Made by a program: the position numbers and the translations under genes
Shown: positions 36,000-44,213 of the stretch, in pieces
Layout: every line of letters begins with the position of its first letter
Numbering within the stretch: the stretch's first letter is position 1
DNA from: Halobellus litoreus
GTDB lineage: Archaea > Halobacteriota > Halobacteria > Halobacteriales > Haloferacaceae
DNA length: 64,000 nt
Assembly (NCBI RefSeq): GCF_024464595.1
Contig: NZ_JANHAW010000001.1
Location: forward strand, 1,443,083-1,507,082
Reading direction: 5' to 3'
Notes under the pieces: model-generated
Told to the model about the DNA's origin: nothing
What the model saw: only the letters and a program-made list of their open reading frames with translations
Database searches by the model: none

Positions 36000-36920
36000 A
36001 TGTCACTGTCGAATGTACTCCCCGACGGTGGGTTGCGCCAGCACCCGCTCGTTCGAAACCTCCGTGAGGGGATTGCACTCATCGCGAACGACCGGACGAC
36101 GCTGTTCTACCTCTCCTTTCTCGTCTTCGTGATCCTCCTGGGGGCGATCGGACCGGAGATCGCACCGTACCCCTACGACGAGCCGATGTACGCTGGGGGG
36201 GAGCCGCTCCTCTCGGAGCCGCCCTCGGTTACTCACCCGCTCGGCACCACGTCGTCGGGCTACGACGTGTTCTCTCGCATCCTCGTCGGGGCGCGCCCGA
36301 CCGTGATCACCGGGCTGCTCGGTGGGACGATCATCATCACGATCGGTTCGGCGATCGGAATCACCGCCGGCTACGTCGGCGGCCGCACCGAAGACGTCCT
36401 GATGCGGATCACGGACATCGCCTACGGCGTGCCGCTCATTCCGTTCGCGATCGTCCTGCTCGCCCTGTTCGGCGTCGGATTCCTGATGTCCGTCGTCGTC
36501 ATCGGACTGCTCCTCTGGCGGGGGCCCGCGCGGGTGTTGCGGTCGCAGGTCCTGCAGATCCGTCAGCGGCCCTTCATCCTCGCGGCGAAGGCGACCGGGG
36601 CGAGCACGCCGCGCATCATCTACAAGCACATCCTCCCGAACGTCGCGCCGATGGCGATAATGTACTTCGCGCTCGGTATCGGTCTCTCGATCCTGCTTCA
36701 GGCGGGGCTGGCGTTCATCGGCGTCTCCAACCCCCTCGTCCCCTCGTGGGGCATTATGATCCGCAACGCGTACACCTCGGGGCAGATGACCACGACGTGG
36801 TGGTGGTCGATTTCCCCCGGCATCTTCATCTCACTCACCGTGATGTCGACGATTATGCTGGGTCGCCGCTACGAGGAACTCGTCGGCCAGACCGACGGCG
36901 AAGCCGTCGCGACCGCGTAG
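36000..36920 (+). CDS. Dpp/Opp-type ABC transporter permease (DppC-like)
   Basis: A membrane protein of 306 residues with six helices and a cytoplasmic start. The OppC-type N-terminal segment (TTLFYLSFLVFVILLGAIGP) and HPLGTTSSGYDVFSRILVGA come first. GRTEDVLMRITDIAYGVPLI follows, and the EAA loop is ILAAKATGASTPRIIYKHIL. It would pair with the DppB-like protein at 40090-41079. Unusually it is separated from the rest of the transporter by an opposite-strand gene and has its own promoter. Confidence 0.9.
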   Translation: MSLSNVLPDGGLRQHPLVRNLREGIALIANDRTTLFYLSFLVFVILLGAIGPEIAPYPYDEPMYAGGEPLLSEPPSVTHPLGTTSSGYDVFSRILVGARPTVITGLLGGTIIITIGSAIGITAGYVGGRTEDVLMRITDIAYGVPLIPFAIVLLALFGVGFLMSVVVIGLLLWRGPARVLRSQVLQIRQRPFILAAKATGASTPRIIYKHILPNVAPMAIMYFALGIGLSILLQAGLAFIGVSNPLVPSWGIMIRNAYTSGQMTTTWWWSISPGIFISLTVMSTIMLGRRYEELVGQTDGEAVATA

Positions 36921-37110: not shown

Positions 37111-37767
37111 CTACCGCATCTCGGCGGTCTCGCGGATCTTCGCGACCTCCGCTTCGATCGTGGACGCGTGCTGGGCACCGAACAGTCGGGAGTCCACCCG
37201 ACCGCCCGCGACGAACAGCAGCGCCGGCGCGCCGGCGACGTCGTACTCGTCCATCACACCGAGAGCGTTCGGTCCGTAGATCGCGAGCAACGCCAGGTCG
37301 TCCGGCGGATCCTCGAAGATCTCCTCCAGCACGGAACGCTGGTCGTCACACGGTTCACAGTCCTCTTTCCAGACGTATACCACTGCTCTCTCACAGGCGC
37401 GGAGGAGCGGCGTGAAACTGCTCCCGACGATCGGGCTGAACGGCTCCGGGACCCCGTCGGTCCGCCCCGGCGTTTCGACGAACTGCATCACGACCGGTGC
37501 GAGGCGTTCGGGGGCCGCATCGGAGAGGTCTTCGACGTGCTCTCCGATGGCTCGTTTGGTCGCTAACAGCTCTCGTTGGTGCCGCTCCTCCGCGCCCTCG
37601 CCGATCGAACCGAGTTCCGATTCGACCTCGACTGCGTCCATTTCACTCACCGCACGCCGGTGTTCGGCCCGGGACTCGACGAATTCGGGGGTCAGTTCGG
37701 CCGTTTCGCCCTCCGCGGTGAGGACGCCGGCTTCCACGAGCCGTTCGAGCAGCTCCGAGGGATTCAT
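37111..37767 (-). CDS. Thioredoxin-fold protein with a CEPC active site
   Basis: A protein of 218 residues. The C-terminal ~100 residues have a thioredoxin fold: strand AVVYVWKEDCEPCDDQRSVL with a CxxC, DLALLAIYGPNALGVMDEYD, the cis-Pro in VAGAPALLFVAGG and a last helix. The N-terminal ~110 residues are helical (MNPSELLERLVEAGVLTAEG, KRAIGEHVEDLSDAAPERLA) and I do not recognise them; they may resemble a winged helix. The start at 37767 is set by a TATA-like CTTATACG at 37795-37802. It sits antisense inside the ABC importer locus, divergent from the DppD-like gene. Confidence 0.75.
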   Translation of the reverse strand: MNPSELLERLVEAGVLTAEGETAELTPEFVESRAEHRRAVSEMDAVEVESELGSIGEGAEERHQRELLATKRAIGEHVEDLSDAAPERLAPVVMQFVETPGRTDGVPEPFSPIVGSSFTPLLRACERAVVYVWKEDCEPCDDQRSVLEEIFEDPPDDLALLAIYGPNALGVMDEYDVAGAPALLFVAGGRVDSRLFGAQHASTIEAEVAKIRETAEMR

Positions 37768-37876
37768 CCTTCCGTCCACTGAGAGGGGCACCTCGTATAA
37801 GGGCACTGCCGACGGCGCGCTCGTGGTCGATTGCCGGGGCGGAACGCGCGTCGGTACCGTTCGTCGTGGATTTCGC

Positions 37877-37890
37877 GAAACGCCTGTTTC
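37877..37890. promoter_or_regulatory. Candidate operator site 2 of the ABC locus
   Basis: GAAACGCCTGTTTC, an inverted repeat (GAAAC/GTTTC) between the thioredoxin-like and DppD-like genes. The 12-mer AACGCCTGTTTC recurs exactly at 41113-41124 upstream of the substrate-binding protein gene. Confidence 0.55.
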
Positions 37891-37959
37891 AGTTTATTTC
37901 AGCCGTTGAGAGCGTCGAAACCGTTAATTAGGACTGTGAGCTATGCGAGACCATCACAC

Positions 37960-39003
37960 ATGAGCGAACCCCTCCTCGAAATCGAGGATCTTACGATACA
38001 ATACCGGACGGACCAGGGTCCACTCACGGCCGTCTCCGGTGCCTCGTTCACCATCGACGACGGCGAGTACTTCGGCCTCGTCGGCGAATCCGGGTGTGGG
38101 AAGAGCACCCTCGCCAAGTCGTTGCTCCGAGGACTCGACGACAACGGCGAAATCACCGCCGGATCCGTTCGGTACCGCGGCGAAGAGATCCACGAGTACG
38201 GGGAGCGGGAGATGAACGAGAAACTCCGATGGAAGGAGATCTCGTGGATCCCACAGAGCTCGATGAACAGCCTGGACCCGCTCCAGCGGGTCAGCGAACA
38301 GGCGCTGGAACTGGCCGAGGTGCACACGGATCTCTCCGAGGCGGCGGCTCGGGAGAAATTCCGCGACCTCTTCGAGGTCGTCGGGCTGCCGAAAGACCGC
38401 ATCGACGACTATCCACACCAGTTCTCCGGCGGAATGCAACAGCGGGCCATCATCGCTCTCGCGCTGTTTCTGGACCCGTCGCTCATCATCGCCGACGAGC
38501 CGACGACGGCGCTCGACGTCATTATGCAGGACATGGTGTTCAAGTACCTCGACGAGATCAAGGAGGCGACCGAGACGAGCCTCCTCCTCATCACCCACGA
38601 CATCAGCGTCGTCTTCGAGAGCTGTGAGTCGATGGCGATTATGCACGGCGGGCAGGTCGCAGAGACGGGTGACGTCGTGGAACTGTTCGATTCGCCCCGG
38701 CACCCGTACTCGATTCTCCTGCAGGAAGCGTTCCCGGACATCCGCCACCCGGAGCGCGACCTCGCGGTCATCGAAGGCCGGCCCCCGCAGTCGATGGGGG
38801 ACGTCGAGTCGTGCACCTTCGCCGACCGCTGTCCGTGGGCGGTCGAAGAGTGCCGCCGGTCCGCCCCACCACTCGAAGAAGTCGCGCAGGACGCGTCCGG
38901 TCACCACCGCGCGGCGTGCTTCCGCAAAGACGAGGTCCTGGAGCTGTACCGCTCGGAGGGCGCGCCACCGGTGGACCCGACGTCGGAGGCACCGCAGCGA
39001 TGA
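37960..39003 (+). CDS. Dpp/Opp-type ABC transporter ATPase (DppD-like)
   Basis: An ATPase of 347 residues. Walker A is LVGESGCGKSTLAKSLLRGL, the Q-loop region ISWIPQSSMNSLDPLQRVSE, the signature FSGGMQQRAIIALAL, Walker B LIIADEPTTALDV and the switch His is in LLLITHDISVVFE. The C-terminal oligopeptide-transporter domain has four Cys (ESCTFADRCPWAVEECR and a later AACFRK), as in DppD/OppD with an Fe-S cluster. A TATA-like GTTAATTAG lies near 37922-37930. The end overlaps the next gene by 4 nt. Confidence 0.92.
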   Translation: MSEPLLEIEDLTIQYRTDQGPLTAVSGASFTIDDGEYFGLVGESGCGKSTLAKSLLRGLDDNGEITAGSVRYRGEEIHEYGEREMNEKLRWKEISWIPQSSMNSLDPLQRVSEQALELAEVHTDLSEAAAREKFRDLFEVVGLPKDRIDDYPHQFSGGMQQRAIIALALFLDPSLIIADEPTTALDVIMQDMVFKYLDEIKEATETSLLLITHDISVVFESCESMAIMHGGQVAETGDVVELFDSPRHPYSILLQEAFPDIRHPERDLAVIEGRPPQSMGDVESCTFADRCPWAVEECRRSAPPLEEVAQDASGHHRAACFRKDEVLELYRSEGAPPVDPTSEAPQR

Positions 39004-40034
39004 CGGACGAGACCCCCCTCCTCGAAACCGAGAACCTCAAACGGTACTTCGATCAGGACACGGGCTTTCTCGACGCCTTCCTGGGTGGGGGAAGCCAACC
39101 GGTTCAGGCGGTCGACGGGGTTTCGCTCGCGCTCTATGAGAACGACTCGATCGGGATCATCGGCGAGAGCGGATGCGGCAAGACGACGCTTCTCCAGACG
39201 CTCGCGCGGCTGCAAGAGCAGACCGACGGCGAACTCCGGTTCGAAGGGAACCCGATCTCGGAGTTCTCCAAGAAGGAGATGAAGGCGTTCCGACGGCAGG
39301 TCCAGATCATCTTCCAGGACCCGTTCAACTCGTTCGACCCGAAACTGACCGTCCGCGAATCGCTGCTCGAACCGCTGCGCATCCACGGGATGGACGACCG
39401 CGATCGGCGGGTCCGCGAAGCGCTCGAACGCGCCGAACTCAACCCGCCGGAAAAGTACCTCGAACGGCGCCCGACGCAGCTGAGCGGCGGCGAACTGCAG
39501 CGGGTCTCTATCGCACGGGCGCTCGTCCTCGAACCAAAGGTAATACTCGCGGACGAGCCCGTCTCGATGCTCGACGTCTCGACGCAGGCGTCCATCCTGA
39601 ACCTCCTCTCCGATCTGACCGCCGAACTCGACGTGGCGCTTTTGTACATCTCACACGATCTCTCGACGGTCTCGTACGTCTGCGATCGGATCGACGTGAT
39701 GTACCTGGGTCGCGTCGTCGAATCGGCACCGACTCACGACCTGCTCGACTCCCCGAAACACCCCTACACGCAAGCGCTCGTGAACGCGATCCCGATTCCG
39801 GACCCCCACGACGATCGGGAGCGGACGACCATCGACGGAACCCCGGGCAATCCGGTCGGCATCGGCGAGGGGTGTCGCTTTCGCGACCGGTGCCCCGAGC
39901 GAATGGATATCTGCGAACGGACGCCTCGGAACGTCTCCGTGGACGCCGAGAACCACCGCGTCGCCTGCCACCTCTACTACGACCACGAGGAGGAGCAACG
40001 CCGCGGCGAAGCGATAGCCGAGGGACAGAAATGA
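39000..40034 (+). CDS. Dpp/Opp-type ABC transporter ATPase (DppF-like)
   Basis: An ATPase of 344 residues and second NBD of the importer. Walker A is IIGESGCGKTTLLQTLARLQ, the Q-loop VQIIFQDPFNSFDPKLTVRE, the signature LSGGELQRVSIARALVLEPK, Walker B VILADEPVSMLDVSTQASIL and the switch is LLYISHDLSTVSYVC. The C-terminal Cys cluster is CRFRDRCPERMDICERTPRN then RVACHLYYD. Its ATG overlaps the stop of the DppD-like gene (ATGA), so the two are coupled. It is followed 55 nt later by the DppB-like permease. Confidence 0.92.
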   Translation: MTDETPLLETENLKRYFDQDTGFLDAFLGGGSQPVQAVDGVSLALYENDSIGIIGESGCGKTTLLQTLARLQEQTDGELRFEGNPISEFSKKEMKAFRRQVQIIFQDPFNSFDPKLTVRESLLEPLRIHGMDDRDRRVREALERAELNPPEKYLERRPTQLSGGELQRVSIARALVLEPKVILADEPVSMLDVSTQASILNLLSDLTAELDVALLYISHDLSTVSYVCDRIDVMYLGRVVESAPTHDLLDSPKHPYTQALVNAIPIPDPHDDRERTTIDGTPGNPVGIGEGCRFRDRCPERMDICERTPRNVSVDAENHRVACHLYYDHEEEQRRGEAIAEGQK

Positions 40035-40089: not shown

Positions 40090-41079
40090 ATGACCCGCAA
40101 GCGATACTTCGCGTACCGGACGGTTCAGACCGTGGTCCTCCTCTGGTTCCTCCTGACGTTCCTGTTCTTCTTCTTCCGGCTGATGCCGGGGAGCTTCACC
40201 GACATTATGCTGCAGCAGGGTGCGTCCGAGTCGGCGGTTATGGCCTTCCGCGATCGGTGGGGGCTGAACGATCCGCTGTACGTTCAGTACCTCCGATATC
40301 TCGGGAACTTCGTCGTCTTCGACTTCGGCACGTCGATCCAGTTCCGAACGCCGGTCATCGAGCACGTCGGCATCCGGATCTTCAACTCGTTCGTCCTCAT
40401 CGCCCCGGCGATCACGGCGGCGTACGTGATCGGCTCGATCTACGGAACGATCCTCGGCACGCAACGCGGCAGCACCTTGGAGAAGCACGGACTGCTCCCG
40501 TTCATCCTCTTCGCGTCGGTCCCGTCGTTCTTCCTCGCGATCGTCGCGATCGTCGTGTTCTCGGGGTACTTCGGGTGGTTCCCGTCGTTCGGGATGATCA
40601 CGCCGGACACGTACACGCAGTTCAGGGACGCTCCCTTCTGGCGGCCGTATCTCACGAGCGACTTCGCGATGCACTATATGCTGCCCTTCGCCGTCATCGT
40701 GATCAGATACACCTACCTGCCGCTTCTGATTATGCGGACGAGCGTCGTCGAGACCATCGGACAGGAGTTCACGTTCTATCACCGGCTCTCGGGACTGCCG
40801 AAGTCGCGTCAGCTTCGACACATCGGCAAGCACTCGATCCTGCCCGTCGTGACGCTGTATCCGGTGTCGATGACGCGAGCACTCGGCGGCCTCGTACTTA
40901 TCGAATCGGTGTTCAACTGGCCGGGTATCGGGTTCACGCTGGTCCAGGCGGTGCTGGCGCGCGACTTCCCGGTCGTCCAGTTCGTGTTCTTCCTGGTCGC
41001 CGGATTCATCATCGTCGCCAACTTCGGCGTGGACCTCCTCTACGGCGTGATCGATCCGCGCGTCAGTGTCGACGAGTAG
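40090..41079 (+). CDS. Dpp/Opp-type ABC transporter permease (DppB-like)
   Basis: A membrane protein of 329 residues with six helices. DppB features are the first helix TVVLLWFLLTFLFFFFRLMP, the periplasmic MPGSFTDIMLQQG and LNDPLYVQYLRYLGNFVVFD stretch and the EAA-like loop in FTFYHRLSGLPKSRQLRHIG. The C-terminal VLIESVFNWPGIGFTLVQAV and VLARDFPVVQFVFFLVAGFI complete the match. It is probably cotranscribed with the two ATPase genes and forms the channel with the DppC-like protein. Confidence 0.92.
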   Translation: MTRKRYFAYRTVQTVVLLWFLLTFLFFFFRLMPGSFTDIMLQQGASESAVMAFRDRWGLNDPLYVQYLRYLGNFVVFDFGTSIQFRTPVIEHVGIRIFNSFVLIAPAITAAYVIGSIYGTILGTQRGSTLEKHGLLPFILFASVPSFFLAIVAIVVFSGYFGWFPSFGMITPDTYTQFRDAPFWRPYLTSDFAMHYMLPFAVIVIRYTYLPLLIMRTSVVETIGQEFTFYHRLSGLPKSRQLRHIGKHSILPVVTLYPVSMTRALGGLVLIESVFNWPGIGFTLVQAVLARDFPVVQFVFFLVAGFIIVANFGVDLLYGVIDPRVSVDE

Positions 41080-41174: not shown

Positions 41175-42998
41175 ATGTCACAGAGTGACAAAAACCGAGG
41201 ATCAGTACAGCGACGGCGCGTGCTTCAGATGCTCGGTGGCGTCGGGATCGCGAGTCTCGCCGGATGTAACGAGGGCGGTAATGGCGGGGGTGATGGCGGA
41301 GACAGCGGCGGGGGTGGCGGTGACCAACAGGAACTCGGCGAACGCGTGCCCGAGATTGCGATCGAATACTGGGCGAACATCGGGACGAGTTCGACGCTGA
41401 TGGAGAACTCGCTGAACCAGTTCCAGAACGGCGTCGAGGAGCTCGGCATCTCGCTGAACATTCTCCCGACGGACTTCGCCACCCAGAACAGCAACGCGTT
41501 CTCGGACGCCCGACGCTCGCACCTCCAGTACTGGACGCATTCCTCGCCGCCGTCCCGCCTCGATCCGGACGAACTCGTCTCGCAGTTCACCGCGGACCGC
41601 GCGGGGGCCGACGGTGCGAACCCGGCGAACTACGCGAACTGCGAGTACACCGATGCCGCCTTCGCGCAACGACGCGCCACCTCCGAGGAGGAACGGCGCG
41701 AGCTGGTGAATTCGGCGCTGGGGACGGCCGCCGAGGACGCCTACATCATCCCGATTCACCCCAGGGTGACGACGGGCGCCTACAGACCGGCGAACGTCGA
41801 GATCGGCGGCACCGGAGACGCGGGGCTGAAGCCGTTCGTGAACCCGTACGTCTTCTTCAGATCCACGCCGACCAACAGCGACACGCTCCGCACGCACGTC
41901 GATCCGCAACTGCTGGAGACGACGAACTTCCCCACGTCGACGAGCCCCACGGTGACGGCCCCGTGGAGTCACCTCGTCCACTCGACGCTGGTCGAGTTCG
42001 ACGAGAACTACGACCTCCAGAATATGCTCGCAGAGAGCATCGAGACCTCCGACGACGGCCTCGTGCTCACCGTCTCGCTCAGGGACGCGACCTTCCACAA
42101 CGGCGATCCGATCACCGCCGAGGACGTGAAGTTCACCTTCGAGTTCATCTCCGACAACGCGGGCATCTTCCCCACCGCGACCTCCCCGCCCTACGAGAGC
42201 ATCGAGGTCGTCGACGAGAGTACGGTGGAATTCACCCTCTCGGAGGTGTTCCGACCGCTCATCCGAAACACGTTCGGCAGGTGGGGGATCCTCCACCGCG
42301 ACACCTGGAGCGCCGCCGTGGGGAACGCGGGAGAGTTCGACTTCGATCCGATCATCGGCTCCGGGCCCTTCCAGGTGGACGACATCCAGCGGGGTTCGTT
42401 TATGCGGCTCACTCCGCACGACGGACACCCCGTCCACGACGTCGGCCACAACGTGTTGCTCCAAGCGTTCGCGGACAACGAATCGATCGTTCAGGCCTTC
42501 CAGAACGACGACCTCGATATGGTGTCGCAGATCGGGCCGAGCACCCAGGAGCAGTTGAGCGACACGATGGGCGATTCGGTGGCGTTCGTCGAGCAGGCGG
42601 AGCCGACCGGGTTCTACCTCTACCCCCAGCACCCACAGAGCCCCGTGAAGTTCCGGGAGTTCCGGCAGGCGCTCGGGATGTCGTTCAACAGACAGCAGAT
42701 CCACGACATCGTGTGGCGCGGCGCGGGCGAGATCGAGTACTCCTCCTGCGTGTTCACCGAGAGTCACCCCTGGCGGCCGCCGGCGGACCGCCTCGGGCAG
42801 TTCACCGACGACCCGGAGGGCGACGTCGAGGGAGCCCGCGAGTTGCTGTCGGAGAACGGATGGGGATGGGACGGTAACGACAACCTCCGGTACCCCGCCG
42901 ACGCGGACCTCTCGCCGCTGTGGCCGCAGGGCGAGAACCCCACCGGCGAGGACTTCCCGTGCCTCGACGAGAACGGGGAGTACGCCGGCGGGAACTGA
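41175..42998 (+). CDS. Substrate-binding lipoprotein of the ABC importer, apparently circularly permuted SBP_bac_5
   Basis: An exported receptor of 607 residues. The signal has VQRRRVLQML and the lipobox SLAGC (Cys31), then a Gly/Asp tether. Residues ~57-212 carry elements that normally end an SBP_bac_5 protein: IAIEYWANIG, VEELGISLNILPTDF, YWTHSSPPSRLDP, ANYANCEYTDAAF, RRELVNSALGTAAEDAYIIP and AYRPANVEI. Residues ~265-600 then carry what normally starts it: HSTLVEFDENYDLQNMLAES, LTVSLRDATFHNGDPITAED, VEVVDEST-like, PIIGSGPFQVDDI, KFREFRQALGMSFNRQQIHD and GARELLSENGWGWDG at the end. I believe close haloarchaeal relatives share this order. The ligand is unknown. TATA-like CATTAACTA gives it its own promoter. 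Confidence 0.85.
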   Translation: MSQSDKNRGSVQRRRVLQMLGGVGIASLAGCNEGGNGGGDGGDSGGGGGDQQELGERVPEIAIEYWANIGTSSTLMENSLNQFQNGVEELGISLNILPTDFATQNSNAFSDARRSHLQYWTHSSPPSRLDPDELVSQFTADRAGADGANPANYANCEYTDAAFAQRRATSEEERRELVNSALGTAAEDAYIIPIHPRVTTGAYRPANVEIGGTGDAGLKPFVNPYVFFRSTPTNSDTLRTHVDPQLLETTNFPTSTSPTVTAPWSHLVHSTLVEFDENYDLQNMLAESIETSDDGLVLTVSLRDATFHNGDPITAEDVKFTFEFISDNAGIFPTATSPPYESIEVVDESTVEFTLSEVFRPLIRNTFGRWGILHRDTWSAAVGNAGEFDFDPIIGSGPFQVDDIQRGSFMRLTPHDGHPVHDVGHNVLLQAFADNESIVQAFQNDDLDMVSQIGPSTQEQLSDTMGDSVAFVEQAEPTGFYLYPQHPQSPVKFREFRQALGMSFNRQQIHDIVWRGAGEIEYSSCVFTESHPWRPPADRLGQFTDDPEGDVEGARELLSENGWGWDGNDNLRYPADADLSPLWPQGENPTGEDFPCLDENGEYAGGN

Positions 42999-43145: not shown

Positions 43146-44213
43146 ATGAGACTAGGACGATTCGTGGTGGAGACTCACTGCCACGCGCAGCGTCACGCGG
43201 TCCGGATCGGGGAGGGCGAGGGCGACTACGCGAACCTCGCAGACGCGATGAAAACGGCGGTGATGGCCGACGACGCCGACGAGGACACGGACGTCGTCGT
43301 GTACGACAACTCGGAGCGGCTGCTGTACGACATGGACACCTACGACGTGGATATGTGCGTTCTCCTGTCAGCGTTCGGGATGACGAACGAGCTCAACCGG
43401 CAGATGATCGAGGCCAACCCGGAGAAGTTCGTCGCGGCGGCGGCCCCGGTACAGACGAAGAAACGCGCCCTCCGCGGCGAGGAAGCGTGGTCCTGGGAGG
43501 CCGCGGCCGACGAACTGGACGAGTGGCTCTCGAAAGACGGCTTCGTGATGACCGGCGAGGGGATTCGGGGGGACCCGACGCGGACCGAACCCGTGCCGTG
43601 GCGGGAGCGAAAGAAACACCTCCGACACGTGTTCGACGTGGCCGCCGACCACGGCGTTCCGGTCCGCTGGCACACCGGCTACACGTCCGGATACGGCGGG
43701 AACCACCTGTTTCATCTCTACCCCGACTGGCAGGACCCGACGCTCGCGTCCCAGCTCAAAGCCGAGTATCCGGAGGTCCCGATCGTGTTCGATCACGGCG
43801 GGATGCAGGCCGGATGGCGCGAGGACTACGTCGACAAGGTGACGCAGGTGGCGGGCACCTTCGACGACGTGTACCTCGAGATCGGGCTCTACTGGGGCGA
43901 ACTGATGAAGAAGCCGATCAACGACCCCAACATCGCCATCGACCAGCTCCTCTGGGGGAGCGACTGGGGCGCGTCGATGGTGCAGCACAGCCAGCCGAAC
44001 GAGTACCCGCCGACGTACTGGGAGCAGATCTCGAGCAAGGGACTGCCGGCGCATCAGCCCGACTACTGGGGGGCTAACCAGCGGCAACTGCTCAAGTTCG
44101 CGCTGGACACCGATCTCCCGCAGGACGACCTGAACCTCATCCTCGGCGGCAACGCCGTTCGGCTGCTCGACCTCGACGTCCCCCACAGCCGGCTGTTCCC
44201 CGAGTTCAAATAG
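43146..44213 (+). CDS. Amidohydrolase-2 family (PF04909) metal-dependent enzyme
   Basis: An enzyme of 355 residues with the TIM-barrel metal ligands of the ACMSD-like amidohydrolase-2 family. These are the HxH pair in VETHCHAQ (His11, His13), His176 in VRWHTGY, His217 in IVFDHGGMQAGW and Asp273 in LLWGSDWG. The closing GGNAVRLLDLDVP is also typical. Members are decarboxylases or hydrolases of carboxylated rings, dienes or lactones. It follows the importer genes, so it may process the imported compound. An inverted repeat overlaps its transcription start. Confidence 0.85.
   Translation: MRLGRFVVETHCHAQRHAVRIGEGEGDYANLADAMKTAVMADDADEDTDVVVYDNSERLLYDMDTYDVDMCVLLSAFGMTNELNRQMIEANPEKFVAAAAPVQTKKRALRGEEAWSWEAAADELDEWLSKDGFVMTGEGIRGDPTRTEPVPWRERKKHLRHVFDVAADHGVPVRWHTGYTSGYGGNHLFHLYPDWQDPTLASQLKAEYPEVPIVFDHGGMQAGWREDYVDKVTQVAGTFDDVYLEIGLYWGELMKKPINDPNIAIDQLLWGSDWGASMVQHSQPNEYPPTYWEQISSKGLPAHQPDYWGANQRQLLKFALDTDLPQDDLNLILGGNAVRLLDLDVPHSRLFPEFK

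Follow-up and report, generated by a model that had tools for sequence, protein, structure and literature searches.

The substrate-binding protein (SBP) encoded on the plus strand at positions 41175-42998 of the window, a 64,000-nucleotide stretch of Halobellus litoreus DNA, is very probably a circularly permuted member of SBP_bac_5 (cluster C), with the C-terminal part of the normal chain placed in front of the N-terminal part; no folding, binding or transport experiment stands behind this reading. The C-then-N order is a family trait found in many archaea and some bacteria. The gene is an intact open reading frame (ORF) with an ATG at 41175 and a stop ending at 42998, and encodes 607 amino acids. 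The protein starts with a twin-arginine type signal and a lipobox, RRRVLQMLGGVGIASLAGC, ending at Cys31, followed by a Gly-rich tether, and a twin-arginine signal with lipobox is also present in most of its permuted relatives. The gene is the last of a full DppB/C/D/F-type operon in the order PermC-DppD-DppF-PermB-SBP. The features of the operon and of the SBP gene are as follows.

36000..36920, plus strand: DppC-like permease (BPD_transp_1; Pfam 2e-25), kept beside relatives.
37111..37806, minus strand: thioredoxin-like protein inside the operon region (Pfam 1.6e-05).
37831..39003, plus strand: DppD-like ATPase (ABC_tran and oligo_HPY; Pfam), kept beside relatives; longest ORF, the true start lies further in.
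38811..40034, plus strand: DppF-like ATPase (ABC_tran and oligo_HPY; Pfam), kept beside relatives; longest ORF, the true start lies further in.
40090..41079, plus strand: DppB-like permease (BPD_transp_1; Pfam 1.8e-26), kept beside relatives.
41175..41267, plus strand: twin-arginine type signal with lipobox (LAGC), residues 1-31, read from the sequence.
41268..41333, plus strand: Gly-rich tether, residues 32-53, read from the sequence; pLDDT of residues 1-50 below 50.
41334..41852, plus strand: moved front segment corresponding to the C-terminal third of a normal SBP5, residues 54-226 (canC HMM 7e-13; CtaP chain 354-466, NikZ 326-494, OppA 350-516).
41844..41894, plus strand: new joint fusing the normal C and N termini, about residues 224-240 (alignments A1/A2); a contiguous match across it was seen only in permuted proteins.
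41880..42902, plus strand: segment corresponding to the first two thirds of a normal SBP5, residues 236-576, terminating in the helix GARELLSENGW (Pfam SBP_bac_5 4.8e-50, canN HMM 5e-66, structural match Z 20-23).
42903..42998, plus strand: C-terminal tail past the cut, residues 577-607 and the stop (alignment A1, tail lengths), missing from shorter permuted subfamilies.

Membership in SBP_bac_5, the sole Pfam family above its cut-off in the window protein, was established by a score of 171 bits versus a cut-off of 32.4. The match was limited to residues 281-577, corresponding to profile positions 2-288 of 368, and the remaining profile positions, which lie behind that point in solved homologues, were found in front of it in the window protein. 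In a phmmer comparison with CtaP (5isu), window residues 279-563 matched chain positions 56-336 (i-E 7e-19) and residues 77-195 matched chain positions 354-466, the latter weakly on its own (i-E 0.14). Since the two CtaP stretches were matched in reverse, the segment order is swapped in the window protein. Among NCBIfam models, only TIGR04028 (SBP_KPN_01854) matched both the front segment (positions 362-478) and the rear segment (42-339), with the parts reversed and far below its cut-off (51 versus 468.5 bits); the NCBIfam matches were SBPs of the peptide/nickel type.

The order was analyzed with two split HMMs, canN and canC, built from 69 normal-order homologues cut after the 'AxxLLxEAGW' helix. 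In the 614-aa open frame, whose numbering runs 7 above that of the protein, canC was located at 82-216 (45.5 bits, 7e-13), preceding canN at 238-570 (219.6 bits, 5e-66). In protein numbering, the C part thus covers about residues 75-209 and the N part residues 231-563, which does not meet the N-then-C order of normal SBPs. The same test on all ORFs of the fetched loci returned 79 in N-C order and 38 in C-N order, the window protein among the latter, and the 79 normal-order ORFs argue that the C-N order is not an artefact of the method. After more loci were added, the counts were 91 and 88, respectively, with overlapping loci and genes that are not independent. A joint profile, A2, aligned without a break to permuted proteins and split into two reversed pieces on normal ones; in a Chloroflexia genome (49 matches) and a Thermomicrobiaceae genome (85 matches), only the two-piece type occurred among the listed rows. 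The best 60 PDB sequence matches included no structure in the permuted order.

AlphaFold2 predicted one closed fold for the whole window protein (pLDDT 89, pTM 0.84), disorder being limited to residues 1-50, from an alignment depth of 34 relatives, all permuted. In Foldseek and VIA-align comparisons, model residues 233-576 aligned to NikZ 2-329 (Z 22.8, rmsd 4.0, 324 residues aligned) and also matched AppA, DppA and OppA. The C part modelled alone (residues 54-236, pLDDT 78) aligned to NikZ 326-494 and OppA 350-516 with Z of 5.6-7.4 and an rmsd of about 7, and nearly all of the listed structural rows were C-terminal parts of SBP5 proteins. The low Z is as expected for a half-lobe folded alone, and the evidence lies in the consistency of the matched range. 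The C-terminal third of the SBP_bac_5 fold is thus present, as shown by the canC HMM and the structural match to chain ends. Matches of the C part to single solved chains are weak alone; the strength of the case comes from profiles and relatives.

Collinear homologues, 35-48% identical, were detected in many genera, and collinear relatives in many genera of haloarchaea; some come from plasmid records and some from single-contig genomes. The plasmid records belong to ten haloarchaeal strains and a Nitratireductor, and where annotated, these relatives are labelled just 'ABC transporter substrate-binding protein'. At E ≤ 1e-35, the joint profile found permuted proteins in 49 of the 393 genomes of the window's phylum. 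With the threshold at E ≤ 1e-30, the family to which Sulfitobacter sp. F26204 belongs yielded them in 14 of 248 genomes, and the order containing an Acidiferrobacteraceae MAG in 3 of 109, with one further truncated match left undecided. In Pseudomonadota, the profile hit 1 of 398 genomes, namely, the centre genome itself, and in Thermoproteota, 2 of 29 genomes. The original prediction, made without database searches, had inferred a circular permutation, believed to be shared by haloarchaeal relatives. Both inferences held, the first by phmmer, split HMMs and structure comparison, the second by the collinear relatives in many haloarchaeal genera and the junction profile. All sequence blocks it quoted are present in the window protein, each of the two parts aligned to the portion of solved SBP5 chains that it had predicted, and the full-length model gave the single closed fold it had anticipated. 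A second C-terminal part behind the N part in homologues, which would have refuted it, was not found in any relative; the 1324-aa frame of L045/L024 is uninformative on this point because of a run of unknown bases.

The presence of permease and oligo_HPY ATPase genes in the same operon is consistent with an SBP_bac_5 protein. In close relatives, permease and ATPase genes likewise adjoin the SBP gene, as they do at the bacterial loci L046 and L068. The thioredoxin-like gene has counterparts, 32-39% identical, at five haloarchaeal loci (L039-L043). An Amidohydro_2 gene (43146-44213, plus strand) lies directly downstream of the window SBP gene; as a clue to the substrate it was rejected, being absent beside the relatives examined.

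Cut sites, read from separate HMM domains, differed between groups of permuted proteins. In most of them, the opening lies behind the 'AxxLLxEAGW' helix (cut A). Proteins of L209-L212 (genomes G008, G012, G010, and G001; the window's own genus) open before this helix (cut B), and the cut in L213 resembles cut B. Proteins encoded at L233-L235, in a different family of archaea, have their opening further along the chain, behind 'GWVPDYLDTDNWVGPLYYG' (cut C); at L233 (2325-4424, minus strand), L234 and L235 they are single ORFs with the cut inside the C part. For phylogeny, both parts were restored to normal order, and the permuted group was defined by chain order, not by the tree. A 53-row tree required five changes of order and none of its bootstrap trees united the permuted proteins; a single permuted clade was rejected by the AU test on these rows (log-likelihood difference 505, p-AU 2.9e-8). 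The tree with more rows required six changes, five of them forced by well-supported branches. Multiple origins are thus shown, and the exact number of changes remains uncertain because long branches are present. The main clade comprises haloarchaea, Rhodobacteraceae and Acidiferrobacterales (support 91/84), and in another tree it held 39 permuted rows and one long-branch normal row. A bolder reading, probably correct, is that SBP_bac_5 is a natural hot spot of circular permutation, with at least six independent events, mostly in archaea, three cut sites in the second lobe and one event so recent that a single genus still has both orders at 83-86% identity, the permuted form lying next to the operon that in sister genera includes the normal form.

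Both orders were found within one genus, g111, of the archaeal family f21, which we take to be Archaeoglobi-like from its PGF-CTERM-like C terminus. Four genomes carry the normal-order SBP (loci L226-L229) and three carry a cut-A permuted version (L222, L223, and L224), and the two forms are 83-86% identical in both parts. The permuted gene adjoins a permease gene in divergent orientation; in sister genera, permeases 81-84% identical have a normal-order SBP as immediate neighbour on their own strand. In G581, about 84 kb of one contig separates the normal-order SBP gene from the permease. Because the outgroup genera have the normal order, the permuted form of g111 is most likely the derived one.

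A lipobox was detected by a simple pattern in 69 of 85 permuted ORFs, and those lacking it were nearly all bacterial with cleavable signals. In the proteins of L217, L250 and L251, the N-terminal lipid is replaced by a hydrophobic C-terminal stretch with basic residues behind it, the end of L217 resembling a PGF-CTERM protein. The Archaeoglobi-like SBPs of normal order are likewise lipoproteins. Since bacterial permuted members lack a lipobox, lipid anchoring is not required for the permuted order; a lipid on the new N terminus is common among permuted SBPs and not needed. The proposal that the new anchor may alter membrane geometry therefore remains an inference, given these bacterial clade members and the archaeal ones anchored C-terminally.

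In OppA and DppA, an Asp three residues after a conserved Trp binds the peptide amino group. The window protein has Ser at this position (WTHS), which makes an ordinary peptide ligand less likely. An Arg directly preceding the conserved D/E-P of the C part was present in 46 of 77 main-clade proteins versus 4 of 110 normal-order ones, and this residue, near the DP motif, may be a ligand contact. Together, the Ser and Arg residues hint at a different ligand class and identify none; this is inferred from sequence, with no binding data.

In the proposed mechanism, the gene product would be a lipoprotein that binds substrate for an ABC importer of the Dpp/Opp type, its normal N and C termini joined via a short linker and its chain cut open anew behind the helix 'ARELLSENGW', ahead of the next strand of the second lobe. 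Export by the twin-arginine type signal would be followed by lipid attachment at Cys31, and the lipid tether would lead into the second lobe, not the first. The protein may then close on its ligand as other SBPs do and pass it to the permeases. Export route, lipidation, ligand closure and transport are all inferred, and substrate and transport are without experiment.

Several other explanations were weighed. An artefact of assembly, or a chance rearrangement confined to one genome with no real family behind it, could not be excluded from the window genome alone, yet no support for it was found, and it was rejected and all but ruled out by the collinear homologues (35-48% identity) found across many genera, among plasmid records and in single-contig genomes. 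That residues 54-226 are a different domain, fused before a truncated SBP unable to close alone, is favored only by the restriction of the Pfam match to residues 281-577. This fusion was rejected as highly improbable: the canC HMM recognizes the segment in the window protein (7e-13) and in permuted relatives (up to 1e-31), the structural matches fall on the C-terminal ends of SBP5 chains, and the moved part of the Archaeoglobi-like proteins shares 83-85% identity with the C-terminal part of a normal-order homologue.

Under a further alternative, one ancient event gave rise to every permuted SBP_bac_5 protein, with some lineages returning to the normal order afterwards. The main clade is compatible with a single event. 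For the permuted proteins as a whole, this alternative is very hard to sustain, as one clade was rejected by the AU test, five of the six changes of order are forced and the cut sites differ. An adaptation to lipid anchoring, as proposed for TpMglB-2 (PMC4990184), is in keeping with the fact that the haloarchaeal members and TpMglB-2 are all lipoproteins. It is nevertheless unlikely in view of the bacterial members of the same clade with cleavable signals and no lipobox, the normal-order Archaeoglobi-like lipoproteins, and the C-terminal hydrophobic anchor on some permuted archaeal SBPs.

Circular permutation of an SBP_bac_5 protein, the reading preferred here, sets the window protein apart from the cluster C SBPs DppA, OppA, AppA, NikA, NikZ and CtaP. 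It shares with them both segments, the predicted fold, the signal with lipobox and an operon encoding a pair of permeases and a pair of oligo_HPY ATPases, but runs C then N, opens after the AxxLLxEAGW helix and has the normal termini fused. Searches of open-access PMC text turned up no earlier case of permutation in cluster C or SBP_bac_5. The sole permuted SBP found in that literature was TpMglB-2 (Tp0684) of Treponema pallidum, a cluster B glucose-binding lipoprotein described as 'Type Ic / cluster Bc', for which glucose binding with conformational change was measured (PMC4990184), so permutation need not harm SBP function. Both are lipoproteins and natural circular permutations of the binding protein of an ABC importer. 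TpMglB-2 differs in its cluster B sugar-binding fold, in the transfer of the first N-lobe strands to the C terminus and in belonging to an unrelated sequence family; the window protein does not meet the cluster B family criterion and meets the permuted-order criterion of Type Ic with another cut and another fold class. The anchoring data bear on the proposal for TpMglB-2 that ties permutation to membrane anchoring.

Natural circular permutations are usually known only as ancient differences, and here a large transporter family shows several. With the states before and after the event in one genus, what permutation does to folding, ligand closure, anchoring and permease docking becomes directly measurable. 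Profile-based annotation and truncated Pfam matches conceal the rearranged fold.

The window's own genome contains six SBP_bac_5 genes, two of them permuted (the window gene and C2:1352004) and four normal. At L219 (G003:C17:181000-199000), two permuted SBP genes and two full permease/ATPase sets lie side by side, possibly a duplicated operon.
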